Origin: a virus
Length of the DNA: 32,380 bases
Direction: 5' to 3' (one strand)
Virus record (IMG/VR): IMGVR_UViG_3300023174_005893
Span: 1-32,380 of that record
The notes beneath the pieces were generated by a model, which was not told the DNA's origin, did not search any database, and saw only the letters and a program-made list of their open reading frames with translations. Every line of letters begins with the position of its first letter. The stretch's first letter is position 1. The position numbers were made by a program, and so were the translations under genes. Below, piece by piece: positions 206 to 26,069 of this stretch.

Positions 206-1237
206 ATGTTAGGAAGCACTTCATCATTCGCTGGTTCAATCGCCCCGCGAAACGTAACCAACCAGACGTTCCGCTACTTTAGGTTCGCGGTGACAAAAGT
301 ACGAGACATCACACAGGATCCAACCTACCCGGTCGGAATGATGCAGATGGCTGAGTTCCAGCTCATGTTCATGGGTACTCGTGTCGATTACACAGGGGCA
401 ACTGCAACCAACACAGGTGGTTATAATCCGTCTGGTCAAGATGCAAGTAAGGCCATCGACAATAACACAGCCACTGTCTTCCTTGACGTGTCCGGCAATG
501 GAACGATAGGCCCCGATGCGACAGGAGTTATAAAGTCCTGGGTCCTACAGATTGATTTTGGTTCCAGGAGGACAGTCGACGGCTTCAGATACATCACGGG
601 TGCTGACGTCAACGGTCGCGATCCAGTCCGCTGGGTTCTAGAGGGAAGCAACGACAGTACGACTTGGTCAACGATCCATGTCCAATCAACAGATGCTTCG
701 ATTACTACCAGCAGGACTACAGCGACACAGATCTTCTACATCACAAGAGGACAAAGCCCGTACATCGCTGGCCTCTACAGGACAAGGTACTCGGGTTACT
801 TTTCAGATGATGTTAACTTCTTTGCAACGGCAACAGCAACTGCGACCACTGTTCAAACAACAGTCATCGAAGAACCTATCACAGATGATGGCGAAAACTT
901 TAGCATGCAGTGGTTGGGATACTTCCTGCCCACAACTACAGAAACATATACTTTTTACCTCAGCTCAGATGATGCATCCTATATGTGGATAGGAAACAAT
1001 GCTGTCTCTGGATTCACGACAGCTAATGCAACAGTCAATAATGGCGGTCTTCACGGACCCGTAGAATTTTCAGGAACGGCAGCTTTGACAGCGGGTGTCT
1101 ATTATCCGATTAGGATCCAGTATGGTGAGTTAACCGGCGGCGACGTCTTAACATTCAATCACTCGACACCCACGATCGGAAAAACGACCAACGTCACAGG
1201 AAAAGTATTCTACCGACCAGCAACTAGGGGTTTCTAA
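206..1237 (+). CDS. Adhesin-like protein with discoidin (F5/8C) and PA14-like domains
   Basis: 343 residues with no signal peptide or membrane segment. Residues about 20-180 resemble an F5/8 type C (discoidin) carbohydrate-binding fold: a YFRF start, a MAEFQL strand, the ASKAIDNNTAT segment and a WVLQIDFG strand, then VRWVLEGSNDSTTW. Residues about 190-340 resemble a PA14/GLEYA-type module: GLYRTRYSGYFSDD, then a WLGYFLPTTTETYTFYLSSD segment that reaches DDASYMWIG, and VYYPIRIQYGE near the end. Both folds usually bind sugars or cell-surface ligands. The gene starts just after a fibre-like gene, and its stop overlaps the next start by one base (TAATG). I infer a receptor-binding or head/tail decoration protein. 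No strong Shine-Dalgarno precedes the ATG at 206. Confidence 0.7.
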   Translation: MLGSTSSFAGSIAPRNVTNQTFRYFRFAVTKVRDITQDPTYPVGMMQMAEFQLMFMGTRVDYTGATATNTGGYNPSGQDASKAIDNNTATVFLDVSGNGTIGPDATGVIKSWVLQIDFGSRRTVDGFRYITGADVNGRDPVRWVLEGSNDSTTWSTIHVQSTDASITTSRTTATQIFYITRGQSPYIAGLYRTRYSGYFSDDVNFFATATATATTVQTTVIEEPITDDGENFSMQWLGYFLPTTTETYTFYLSSDDASYMWIGNNAVSGFTTANATVNNGGLHGPVEFSGTAALTAGVYYPIRIQYGELTGGDVLTFNHSTPTIGKTTNVTGKVFYRPATRGF

Positions 1238-1437
1238 TGATTCAAGAACTTTTAAAAGACGAAGAGGGACAGTCCACCGTCGAGTACATGCTGCTCATCA
1301 GCGTGATCGTGATCGCGATCGTTGCCGCGGCTTACGTCTTCATCGAGCCGTTTAAGCAGGGCGTCCTTGACTTAGGAAAGGACATCAAGAAGATCCTATC
1401 TGATGGCAAGATAGGAAGAGTAGGAACAGCTCGTTAA
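1237..1437 (+). CDS. Flp/Tad-type pilin-like small membrane protein
   Basis: 66 residues. A short charged leader (MIQELLKDEEG) is followed by QSTVEYMLL and a hydrophobic helix at about residues 18-37. This matches the known processing site of Flp pilins: cleavage after Gly11 would leave a mature protein with Glu at position 5 and Tyr at position 6. The helix is followed by an amphipathic, lysine-rich tail, and the short total length is typical of Flp pilins. The start ATG overlaps the stop of the adhesin-like gene by one base, so the two are probably translated together. No prepilin peptidase or secretion ATPase is in the window, so processing would need a host Tad or type IV pilus system. 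A plain phage membrane protein is the alternative, but the G|xxxxEY signature argues against it. Confidence 0.72.
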   Translation: MIQELLKDEEGQSTVEYMLLISVIVIAIVAAAYVFIEPFKQGVLDLGKDIKKILSDGKIGRVGTAR

Positions 1438-1467: not shown

Positions 1468-3339
1468 ATGGAAAAACAGATTATTTTTGTTGCAGATCTC
1501 TTCGCTGAACAGTATGCCGGCGGTGCTGAACTAACGTCAGATGCACTAATTGAAGCATCACCCGCACTTGTCAAGAAAGTTCACGCAAAGAACTTAACAG
1601 TTGAGTTCTTGCAACAGAACGTTGATGCTTTCTGGATCTTTGGTAATTTCTCATCTATTAACTGGTCGTTGATTCCAGTCATTGCAGCTAATCTCCGTTA
1701 TGCAGTGCTTGAGTATGACTATAAGTTCTGCCTCCATCGATCGATTGAGAAGCACTTGCATGAGACAGGACAAGAATGTGACTGTCATAAGCGCCAGCTA
1801 GGACAGCTTGTTGCAGGCTTCTATCAAGCAGCAGATGCAATCTTCTGGATGTCTGAGCAGCAGCGTGCAAGATACACAGAGAGGTTCCCAAATCTGTTAG
1901 GGCACAGGAATTCACACATTCTAAGCTCTGTATTTGATGCACGCTTCTTTGATAAGATAAATCATCTCAAGAGCAATACTACTGACAGAAGTGGTTGGAT
2001 CGTTCTTGGATCTAAGTCATGGATCAAGGGCTATGAAGATGCGGTGAAGTGGTGTGAGGACAATGGAAAGAAGTTCCAGAGCTACTGGGATGTCCCATAT
2101 GAGGATCTTCTTAATACTATGTCAAGATCTGAGGGATTCGTCTATCTTCCACGAGGTGGTGACACTTGTCCTCGCATGGTAATCGAAGCGAAGCTGCTTG
2201 GTTGTGACGTCGTCACCAACGATAATGTGCAGCATGCATCAGAAAAATGGTGGAATGCCAACCCAGATGATGTCTGTGATTATTTGATGGGTAGGCCTGA
2301 TGTGTTTTGGGCGGTCATAAATAATGTGATCCAGCAGCAACCGACGCTGTCCGGTTACAGCACAACCTACAACTGTGTTGATCAAAACTATCCATTCGTT
2401 GAGTCGATCACGTCTCTGCTTGATGTCTGCGACGAGGTGGTAGTTGTTGATGGAGGATCAACAGATGGAACTTGGGAAGTCCTCTCTGCGATGTCAAATG
2501 AGAACCCGAAACTCAAGATCAAGCAGATTGAACGCAACTGGAGTCATCCACGGCACTCTGTCTTTGACGGCATGCAGAAGGCAGCTGCACGAGATCTCTG
2601 CACGGGTGACTTCTGCTGGCAGCAGGATGTCGATGAGGTAATCCACCAGAATGATTACCAGAAGATTCGTAATTTGCTCACCTCTACACCTAAGAGCGTC
2701 AATCTCATCTGTCTACCTGTGACTGAGTTCTGGGGTAGTAAGGGCAAGATCCGAATCGATATTAATCCCTGGAAGTGGCGTCTGAGTAGAAACCACCCAG
2801 AGATCACACATGGCATTCCTGCAATCTTACGTCGACAAGATGAGAATGGTGACCTCTACTCTGCACCAGGATCAGACGGCTGTGATTACATCACACGGAG
2901 CACGGGAGATCTTGTTCCAAATGTCAACTTCCACACGCAGCAGACAGAGCAACTGCGTCAAGCTGCGACGAGAGATCCTGCAGCAAGGCAGCAGTACGTG
3001 CAGTGGTTTACTGCGGTAATCCAGAACTTGCCAGGTGTCTACCATTATTCATGGTTCAATCTTCCTCGCAAGATTAGAACTTACAAGAACTACTGGTCAC
3101 GTCATTGGCAGAGCATGTATAACATCAGTCAGGATGACACAGCAGAGAACAACATGTTCTTCAATAAGCCCTGGTCAGACGTAAGCGACGATGAGATCGA
3201 CCTACTTGCAGCCCGTCTTGAGCAAGAAATGGGTGGCTGGATCTTCCACCGCAAGATTGATTGGAACAATCCCACACCGAGTGTTATGGTTAATGAAGTA
3301 ACACATCCGGCTGTGATGGAAGATTATGTCAACGCCTAA
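1468..3339 (+). CDS. Two-domain glycosyltransferase (GT4-like + GT2)
   Basis: 623 residues. The first ~290 form a GT-B (GT4-like) glycosyltransferase. Near residues 190-270 are the strand WIVLGSKSWIKG and a donor-site segment LPRGGDTCPRMVIEAKLLG, where the usual EX7E motif appears as DX7E. From about residue 305 a GT-A (GT2) domain begins (YNCVDQNYPFVESI) with VVVVDGGSTDGTW near 323 and a metal-binding DVDE at 387-390. GT2 enzymes transfer sugars from nucleotide donors with inversion, and GT4 enzymes usually do so with retention. One chain could therefore add two different sugars in order. The ATG at 1468 lacks a close Shine-Dalgarno. The 3' end overlaps the next gene by 14 bases. Confidence 0.85.
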   Translation: MEKQIIFVADLFAEQYAGGAELTSDALIEASPALVKKVHAKNLTVEFLQQNVDAFWIFGNFSSINWSLIPVIAANLRYAVLEYDYKFCLHRSIEKHLHETGQECDCHKRQLGQLVAGFYQAADAIFWMSEQQRARYTERFPNLLGHRNSHILSSVFDARFFDKINHLKSNTTDRSGWIVLGSKSWIKGYEDAVKWCEDNGKKFQSYWDVPYEDLLNTMSRSEGFVYLPRGGDTCPRMVIEAKLLGCDVVTNDNVQHASEKWWNANPDDVCDYLMGRPDVFWAVINNVIQQQPTLSGYSTTYNCVDQNYPFVESITSLLDVCDEVVVVDGGSTDGTWEVLSAMSNENPKLKIKQIERNWSHPRHSVFDGMQKAAARDLCTGDFCWQQDVDEVIHQNDYQKIRNLLTSTPKSVNLICLPVTEFWGSKGKIRIDINPWKWRLSRNHPEITHGIPAILRRQDENGDLYSAPGSDGCDYITRSTGDLVPNVNFHTQQTEQLRQAATRDPAARQQYVQWFTAVIQNLPGVYHYSWFNLPRKIRTYKNYWSRHWQSMYNISQDDTAENNMFFNKPWSDVSDDEIDLLAARLEQEMGGWIFHRKIDWNNPTPSVMVNEVTHPAVMEDYVNA

Positions 3340-23754: not shown

Positions 23755-24225
23755 ATGGCAGAGCGTAGCTTCAAAAACATTGGTACAACAGTCACGCAGC
23801 TTAGCACAACTAAGCCTACTGTGCCTGTGCTTCCAGTCGGCATTAAGACGCCTATGACGCTGGGAGGCAATGGTAATCCGTACCAGATGCATACATCAGT
23901 TGCCGAACAAGTTCAAGATAACTTGCGTAACATGATTATGACTAATTGGGGTGAGAGATTGGGATTGTACGATTACGGAGGCAATCTCAGGCAAATCTTA
24001 GCAGATTATGCAACTAATACTGATCTTGAGACATCTGTAATGCAGTCAATTATGAGAACTGTTGAGAAGTATATGCCGTTCGTCACACTTGACACATTTG
24101 ACATGCAGAACCTCCCATCGACAAGAAATGGGCAAGCAAAATTTCAAATTATGGTAAACTACAGCGTCCCAAAGATCGGCGCAAACAATCAGAAAGTTAA
24201 GATCATACTAGAGGTGATGGGATAA
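23755..24225 (+). CDS. gp25-like baseplate wedge protein
   Basis: 156 residues, matching the short gp25/gpW (GPW_gp25) family. Recognisable parts are SVAEQVQDNLRNMIMTNWGE, the RLGLYDYGGNLRQIL core, and the sheet FQIMVNYSVPKIGANNQKVK that ends ILEVMG. In T4, gp25 together with gp6 and gp53 forms the inner baseplate wedge and nucleates the sheath. The ATG at 23755 has no clear Shine-Dalgarno, but TAGTTATTA lies just upstream. The next gene overlaps the stop by one base (TAATG) and is gp6-like, the usual order in T4-like phages. Confidence 0.88.
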   Translation: MAERSFKNIGTTVTQLSTTKPTVPVLPVGIKTPMTLGGNGNPYQMHTSVAEQVQDNLRNMIMTNWGERLGLYDYGGNLRQILADYATNTDLETSVMQSIMRTVEKYMPFVTLDTFDMQNLPSTRNGQAKFQIMVNYSVPKIGANNQKVKIILEVMG

Positions 24226-26069
24226 TGGCAACAATACAACAAAAACTCCGCCAACAGCGCCAGAGATCTTACCTTGGCAAAGATTTTGATGCTCTTAGAG
24301 ATAATCTTGCAACTTACGCAAAGAGTTACTACACAGACCAGATCAAAGATGTATCAGAAAGCTCTGTTGCAGGCATGTTCATTGACATGGCTGCATACAC
24401 AGGTGACGTCCTGTCATACTACCTTGACTACCAGTTTAATGAGCTGGATCTCTCATCTGCAACTGATGTTAACAATGTCGAACGTCTGATTAGAAGAACA
24501 GGCGTTAAGATCGGTGGCGCATCACCTGCCATCGTTAATGTCAACTTTTACGCAATAATTCCGGCACAAGTTTCTAATGGTATTTATCAGCCAAACACAC
24601 AGTATCTGCCAATCATTCAGTCAGGAACACAAGTAACATCAAATTCTGGAATCGTATTTGAGCTGGCAGAAGATGTTGATTTTGGTGCAGTTGATACTAC
24701 CGGAAAACTTACTACAGAATACAAGATCTTTTCACAAGATGCATCGGGAAATCCTACGCGATTTGTCATGAAACGCATTGGAATCTGCTCATCGGGAAGA
24801 GTTGCAACTGAGACTTTCACAATTGATGATAACTTTGTTCCCTTTAGAAGGATAACACTCACTAACATAAATGTGTCAGAGATTATTGGAGTTACAGATT
24901 CAGACGGGAACCAGTATTATGAAGTAGAATCACTCACACACGATGTTGTCTATAAAGCAACGACAAACACCAAGTATGATGCCGATGTTGTCGAGGATTC
25001 ACTTTCTGTTATTCCAGCGCCTAGACGTTTCACAACTAGCGGAAGTCGAGTGACAGGAAAGACAACTTTGACTTTTGGATCAGGAGACGCACAGTCACTC
25101 GATGATGACATCATACCCGACCCATCAGAGCTGGCACTGCCTCTATACGGATCGAAGAAGACGTTCAATAAGGCATCAATTGATCCTAATACACTACTGC
25201 AGACAAGGAGCTTGGGTATCTCACCTACAAGCACAACAATCACGGTGTCGTATCGTTATGGTGGTGGATTAAATAATAACGTGGGAGCAGGAACTATCAA
25301 TAGCATCACACGGCTTGTTCATCGTTTCCCGCCTTCTGCACCTACAAGTATTGCGTCTACAATTCGTGCAACTTTTGAAGTTGACAACACGGAAACAGCT
25401 GTAGGAGGTGAGGATGCATTGTCTCTTGAAGATCTAAGAGCTATTGCACTCAACTATGCAAATTCACAGAATAGAATCGTGACTAAACAAGACGCAGCAG
25501 CACGCATCTACACTATGCCATCTAATTTTGGTAGAGTTTACCGCGCAGGATTTCGCCCCAACCCAGTTAATCCACTGTCAACCTTAATGTACGTCATTAG
25601 TCGTAACTCTAGCGGCCAGCTTGTGCTATCAAGTGATACACTTAAGATTAACTTAAGTAAGTACCTCAATGAGTTTAGATTGATCTCTGATGCTATAGAC
25701 ATTGTTGATGCTGCAATTGTCAACATAAGAGTTAGATACACAGTGACACTTAATTCAACAGCTGTCAAGAACACAACACTACAGAAAATTAATCAGTCAC
25801 TTAAAGATTACTTTAACATCAAGAACTTCCAAATTGATCAAGGAATTCTAACATCTGATGTTATGAATATACTTCTGAACACAGATGGTGTCATAACAGT
25901 TGCCAATCTTACATTTGAAAGCGTTAATGGCGTTATCAATGGCACAGCATACAGCGATGTCATCTTCAATGTTACACAAAACACTTTAAATGGCGTGATA
26001 ATTCCACCACCCGGCGGTATATTTGAAGTTAGATATCCAGATTTTGATATTGTTGGTAACGTTAGCTAG
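24225..26069 (+). CDS. gp6-like baseplate wedge protein (Baseplate_J type)
   Basis: 614 residues, close to T4 gp6 in length. The start RSYLGKDFDALRDNLATYAK is followed by SSVAGMFIDMAAYTGDVLSY and VNNVERLIRRTGVKIGG, the typical gp6/gpJ N-terminal helix bundle. The middle is beta-rich, and from residue about 400 the sequence DLRAIALNYANSQNRIVTKQ leads to a domain that includes AAIVNIRVRYTVTL. In T4, gp6 dimers form the ring joining wedges. The gene directly follows gp25-like, as in T4 relatives. Confidence 0.9.
   Translation: MATIQQKLRQQRQRSYLGKDFDALRDNLATYAKSYYTDQIKDVSESSVAGMFIDMAAYTGDVLSYYLDYQFNELDLSSATDVNNVERLIRRTGVKIGGASPAIVNVNFYAIIPAQVSNGIYQPNTQYLPIIQSGTQVTSNSGIVFELAEDVDFGAVDTTGKLTTEYKIFSQDASGNPTRFVMKRIGICSSGRVATETFTIDDNFVPFRRITLTNINVSEIIGVTDSDGNQYYEVESLTHDVVYKATTNTKYDADVVEDSLSVIPAPRRFTTSGSRVTGKTTLTFGSGDAQSLDDDIIPDPSELALPLYGSKKTFNKASIDPNTLLQTRSLGISPTSTTITVSYRYGGGLNNNVGAGTINSITRLVHRFPPSAPTSIASTIRATFEVDNTETAVGGEDALSLEDLRAIALNYANSQNRIVTKQDAAARIYTMPSNFGRVYRAGFRPNPVNPLSTLMYVISRNSSGQLVLSSDTLKINLSKYLNEFRLISDAIDIVDAAIVNIRVRYTVTLNSTAVKNTTLQKINQSLKDYFNIKNFQIDQGILTSDVMNILLNTDGVITVANLTFESVNGVINGTAYSDVIFNVTQNTLNGVIIPPPGGIFEVRYPDFDIVGNVS

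Follow-up and report, generated by a model that had tools for sequence, protein, structure and literature searches.

Why should a tailed phage carry the gene for a subunit of a bacterial pilus, and what could the phage do with it? This question is raised by a small gene at the beginning of the window, i.e. the whole stretch of DNA analysed here, a 32,380-base IMG/VR virus record. Genes for gp25-like baseplate wedge and J/gp6-like proteins (23755..26069, + strand), which lie outside the pilin unit and provide its context, mark a myovirus-type phage. That phages block or exploit the pili of their hosts is well established; a pilus subunit that the phage itself supplies, and that strong selection maintains in several lineages, would be a different way of controlling the host surface.

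The prepilin and its gene

The gene (1237..1437, + strand) starts with the ATG of a TAATG, overlapping the stop codon of the preceding gene, and encodes a Flp/Tad-type prepilin of 66 residues, composed of an 11-residue leader and a mature protein of 55 residues. The full prepilin reads MIQELLKDEEG followed by QSTVEYMLLISVIVIAIVAAAYVFIEPFKQGVLDLGKDIKKILSDGKIGRVGTAR, the first part being a class III leader (1237..1269, + strand) with cleavage by a prepilin peptidase predicted after Gly11. Gly11 is followed by QSTVEY and then, without interruption, by a hydrophobic helix, and the mature protein would carry Glu5-Tyr6; on all these points, and on the exact reading frame, a sequence-only reading of this DNA had been correct. 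The N-terminal half of the mature pilin, the packing helix QSTVEYMLLISVIVIAIVAAAYVF (1270..1341, + strand), is near-invariant in phages and bacteria, and the C-terminal half (1342..1434, + strand), consisting of a second helix and a tail, contains most of the phage-specific residues. In an AlphaFold2 model (mean pLDDT 82.7) the helices span residues 2-35 and 37-55, the first reaching a pLDDT of about 97 in its middle. The pilin is short, entirely α-helical in this prediction and within the range of about 50-80 residues expected of Flp/Tad (type IVc) pilins, whose major pilins it also resembles in its class III leader and the G↓xxxxEY processing site.

All matches in a Pfam scan were below cut-off (Flp1_like, E=0.003; Class_IIIsignal, 0.005; Flp_Fap, 0.04), the Flp profiles PF04964 and PF16982 scoring 14.1 bits (cut-off 32.2) and 17.3 bits (cut-off 33.5), respectively. 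There was no PHROG match, no protein match among INPHARED phages and, when the pilin was queried by sequence and by fold, no useful match in the PDB. Given the sub-cut-off Pfam matches and the lack of a PHROG, automatic annotation probably misses this pilin. As the cut-offs of the Flp profiles are not reached, we speak of a 'Flp-type pilin' and not of a 'member of Pfam Flp_Fap', the threshold being a matter of the profile rather than a biological feature. The sub-cut-off Flp_Fap and Flp1_like matches nevertheless set the phage copy apart from the Flp/Tad major pilins, as does its carriage by a phage without the machinery. Judged from its sequence, the gene is of the Flp/Tad (type IVc) major-pilin type with an intact processing site, and both cleavage and assembly of its product are predicted.

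The preceding gene (206..1237, + strand) codes for an adhesin or tail-fibre-type protein with a PA14/GLEYA domain (E 4e-17 / 6.5e-20) and, below threshold, a match of the F5/8 discoidin type, in agreement with the discoidin/PA14-type adhesin proposed before. Directly downstream of the pilin lies a glycosyltransferase gene with a family 2 C-terminal domain (1468..3339, + strand).

A conserved, separable gene and its partners

The same pilin is encoded by 16 further IMG/VR viral contigs (identity 83-97%), and a profile scan of viral contigs returned these 16 loci and added none, i.e. the phage-carried prepilin recognized in the sequence-only reading is conserved across phage lineages. Nor is the gene an open reading frame due to chance: a six-frame scan of about 55 viral loci for the motif G/A-x4-E-[hydrophobic, Y, S or T], with 17 residues without charge or proline and a short tail, found the pilin once per pilin-bearing contig and one other, chance match. 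All 17 phage copies have a mature pilin of 55 residues without any indel. Across 27 aligned phage and bacterial sequences the segment G11-A27 does not vary; it includes G11, Q12, E16 and Y17 and thus the G↓xxxxEY site. The packing helix is almost identical in phages and bacteria. Residues specific for the phage copies (E/D37-P38, K/R40, D56, R61, V/I62) are concentrated outside this helix, in the C-terminal half. In pairwise comparisons of the phage pilins the median pN/pS is 0.086 at a median pS of 0.66, with pS values of up to 0.94 relative to the window; so low a pN/pS at near-saturated synonymous sites argues for strong purifying selection over a long separation. In a tree the phage pilins form one clade (support 95/98), which is nested inside the bacterial pilins beside L032. 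The gene hence combines host origin, phage context and purifying selection, as is characteristic of a host-derived auxiliary phage gene.

The pilin-bearing records, with GC contents from 0.37 to 0.57, fall into at least three phage groups that differ in gene content and, according to shared-gene counts, have few genes in common. A T4-like group comprises the window, G194, G195, G196, G199, G201, G202, which encodes major head, portal, tail sheath and baseplate proteins, and G205; a second group consists of G198, G200, G206, G207 and G208, a third of G197 and G203, and G204 is unassigned. Two GroEL-type chaperonins and sigma factors were seen among the pooled proteins of G203 and G200, two of these pilin phages.

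The gene occurs in two layouts. In the first, an adhesin or other tail-fibre-type gene is followed by the pilin and an adjoining glycosyltransferase (window, L002, L003, L004, L007, L013); in the second, which lacks the adjoining glycosyltransferase, the pilin lies close to the gene of a small exported protein (L005, L006, L008-L011, L014-L017). The order adhesin-pilin is repeated in L003, L004, L006, L007 and L008, and L006 and L008 mix both layouts, having adhesin and pilin together with the small exported partner. In G202, whose adhesin is 82% identical to that of the window, adhesin and glycosyltransferase genes are adjacent with no pilin between them (L184:9608-9774), i.e. the site is empty and the pilin sits elsewhere. 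The two layouts and this pilin-free junction show a gene that can be separated from its neighbours. For the G202 junction the possibility of a decayed pilin, suggested by eye from the sequence EKLLQDEK, was rejected since the local alignment scores were not clearly above those of shuffles (depending on the reference pilin, between 74 and 890 of 1000 shuffles scored at least as high). Likewise, we do not follow the earlier suggestion that the pilin may be the acceptor of a glycan, since it lies outside a glycan island in 11 of the 17 loci and the G202 adhesin-glycosyltransferase pair does without it.

The small exported partner matches the NCBIfam model NF033764 (adventurous gliding motility protein CglF; E about 1e-15). 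It thus shares a family model with CglF/GltF of the Agl-Glt machinery, yet the phage proteins score 53-60 bits, under the curated cut-off of 90, as do the best copies of the related bacteria (51-59 bits). In M. xanthus, CglF (GltF) co-localises with the gliding machinery (PMC4488436). Ten of the 17 pilin phages have a CglF-like gene, always no more than about 5 kb from the pilin and, in L005, L011, L014, L016 and L017, immediately upstream of it; it is absent from the window-type phages within their available sequence. In the related bacteria cglF is part of the glt gliding locus (GltC, TPR, GltE, CglF, GltG, CglE in L123), and the phage proteins are 66-75% identical to these copies over about 65 residues. 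Whereas CglF and pilin lie close to each other in the phages, the related bacteria have them on different contigs. Carriage of the gliding gene cglF by phages is wider than that of the pilin, as it occurs in 36 more viral contigs without a nearby pilin (L133, L140-L174), of up to 289 kb (L150), and a six-frame motif scan detected no class III pilins near CglF in these pilin-free contigs. In a CglF tree the copies of the pilin-group phages, joined by four pilin-free viral copies, cluster apart from the bacterial ones; few columns resolve the rest. The sequence-only reading missed both this recurrent partner and the link to gliding, myxobacteria-like hosts.

Related bacteria and known Tad systems

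The nearest bacterial pilins (61-80% identical) are chromosomal and stem from MAGs labelled Deltaproteobacteria or Proteobacteria, which we call Myxococcota-like because their glt locus includes a CglE that exceeds its cut-off. L026 and L031 come from MAGs titled Klebsiella pneumoniae and have the pilin in the Deltaproteobacteria-MAG neighbourhood; these titles are almost certainly wrong. The neighbourhoods of the bacterial pilins are conserved, contain metallophosphatase, TPR and sulfatase genes and lie outside the Tad loci, which are on other contigs. T2SSE ATPases are present in 12/12 related genomes tested, Tad loci were identified in several, and the related bacteria have two A24 prepilin peptidases each. 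The Tad locus of G008, of which G006 and G007 have close copies, encodes a TadA with a MinD/ParA-like N-terminal part, the secretin RcpA, RcpC and a 44-residue Flp, and A24 peptidases adjoin the local Flps. In G185 a 55-residue pilin of the phage-pilin family is located within the Tad locus, between a 44-residue Flp and RcpC-RcpA-TadA, which ties the family to the Tad machine; association with a Tad locus and A24 peptidases is a feature that it shares with the Flp/Tad major pilins. In the 17 pilin phage records, mostly fragments of about 0.94 Mb in total, neither a T2SSE assembly ATPase nor an A24 peptidase was detected. As the pilin is found in phage records without an assembly machinery of their own, and the related bacteria have Tad machinery, entry into the host Tad system, already proposed in the sequence-only reading, would be the natural interpretation. 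Assigned by gene homology, the hosts of the pilin phages are probably gliding, myxobacteria-like bacteria, and they are possibly predatory.

A second small Flp type with a mature length of 44 residues, most copies ending in PYP, PFP or PIP, was observed in L077-L082, L217 (G185), L067, L070, L074 and L075. It is found repeatedly both within Tad loci and outside them in the Myxococcota-like phylum and could be an adapter pilin, comparable to KilO (59 residues).

A close described parallel in organization is KilP of Myxococcus xanthus (MXAN_5121, 97 residues), an orphan Flp encoded outside the kil clusters that is the major pilin of the Kil/Tad prey-killing pilus and whose C-terminal part, in models, lies over the surface of the pilus (PMC12075869). 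The bacterial relatives of the phage pilin are likewise orphan Flp genes, and their genomes contain a separate Tad locus, which holds small Flps of its own, and a glt gliding locus. With 97 residues KilP is longer than the phage prepilin (66 residues), and the comparison with it is one of length and description. Moreover, the Tad ATPase of the related bacteria has the MinD/ParA-like N-terminal part, whereas for KilF an FHA domain is described (PMC8460266).

The assumption in the sequence-only reading that no phage example had been described was wrong, as Flp-family pilins are reported for the Vibrio harveyi prophages phi345 and phiGANI1709, where they are listed as virulence-factor homologues (PMC12482185). 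These are also Flp-family genes in tailed phages; however, they belong to Vibrio prophages, and the accessible part of that report does not address selection or partner genes, whereas the pilin analysed here is found in IMG/VR contigs linked to Myxococcota-like hosts, in several phage groups and often together with CglF. A literature search, with most subscription literature and preprints outside its range, found no paper that deals with a pilin carried by phages of myxobacteria-like hosts or with a CglF encoded by phages. What appears to be new is the pairing with CglF, together with the connection to gliding and possibly predatory hosts.

Possible roles of the phage pilin

With moderate confidence we regard the pilin as a Tad pilin of host origin that, by way of the host's own machinery, changes the Tad pilus of the infected cell, a purpose that we infer. 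The gene would have been captured from a gliding, myxobacteria-like host and then retained by several phage lineages. During infection, by analogy with KilP, a host peptidase would cleave the phage prepilin and the host Tad machine would build the pilin into the host pilus, either alone or mixed with the host pilin. The outcome would be a working pilus with a changed surface, as the unchanged packing helix together with differences in the part expected to be exposed suggests a functional pilus with a different surface. The most likely benefit would be an altered contact apparatus of the host, either shielding the infected cell from other phages or maintaining and steering its contact and motility functions while the phage grows. 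Where the phage also carries CglF, the gliding machine may be altered likewise. This suggests that several unrelated phages remodel the contact and predation apparatus of their hosts during infection. More tentatively, the Tad major pilin and CglF may form a movable 'contact apparatus' set, carried by phages of gliding, predatory myxobacteria-like bacteria, that replaces host subunits during infection and thereby adjusts how the host meets its prey, how it moves and which phage receptors it presents. A point against the captured-pilin reading is the location of the pilin among tail-fibre genes in the window-type phages, which may reflect late expression; others are the greater length of KilP and the Pfam Flp scores below cut-off.

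Several other explanations have to be weighed. Pilin and CglF might sustain contact-dependent killing and gliding in infected cells, either feeding the infection or spreading the phage. We consider such an auxiliary role in predation and motility somewhat unlikely: a Tad and a gliding gene are carried close together by the phages while the bacteria have them on separate contigs, CglF is carried by the 36 further viral contigs, and contact killing by Kil is coupled to A-motility in M. xanthus (PMC8460266), but the window-type phages, with the pilin among their tail fibres, have no CglF in the available sequence, and predation by the related uncultured bacteria is putative. Alternatively, the phage pilin may be inserted into the host Tad filament only to jam or weaken it, so that superinfection is excluded by the loss of a pilus which serves other phages as receptor, or pilus function is stopped. 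A pilin without its own machinery can act only through that of the host, fixed phage residues such as Pro38 and Asp56 separate it from nearly all bacterial copies, and the single-residue KilP variant A96C joins filaments beside the wild type although it does not complement alone (PMC12075869); a dominant-negative pilin would be expected to look similar to a co-assembling one. Yet all family-conserved sites, including the C-terminal ones, are retained under strong purifying selection and the adjacent CglF suggests support or remodelling over simple destruction, making poisoning of the pilus unlikely.

Very improbable, in our view, is a role in the virion, with the small helical protein either belonging to the adhesin or acting as its chaperone. 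Although the two genes overlap in the window and the pilin directly follows the adhesin in five other loci, it has other upstream neighbours in L005, L009-L012 and L014-L017, adhesin and glycosyltransferase stand together without it in G202, and its greatest similarity is to bacterial Tad pilins. Finally, we reject contamination with host DNA or a functionless passenger gene as scarcely credible. The GC3 of the pilin in the window (0.61) is above that of most window genes, fitting acquisition from GC-rich bacteria; in L005, L011 and L012, however, it is 0.20-0.27, AT-adapted like the respective phage, and the phage neighbours in 17 contigs, the single phage-only clade and the low pN/pS also speak against it. 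Neither of the two outcomes that the sequence-only reading had named as refuting it, ordinary bacterial pilins alone in a segment of host DNA or an unconserved G↓xxxxEY site, was observed.

The link to CglF points to the machines of myxobacterial movement and contact killing, and phages may thus influence bacterial predation. M. xanthus allows direct testing, as its Tad (Kil) pilus and gliding can be observed in single cells.

Phages with both pilin and CglF also encode a large exported protein with a C-terminal OmpA domain (L010:10840-14622, L016:11133-14708 and, in G206, L190:9006-12656), which may be another host-surface gene; the protein from L010 additionally contains thrombospondin type 3 repeats and a MYXO-CTERM-like hydrophobic segment.
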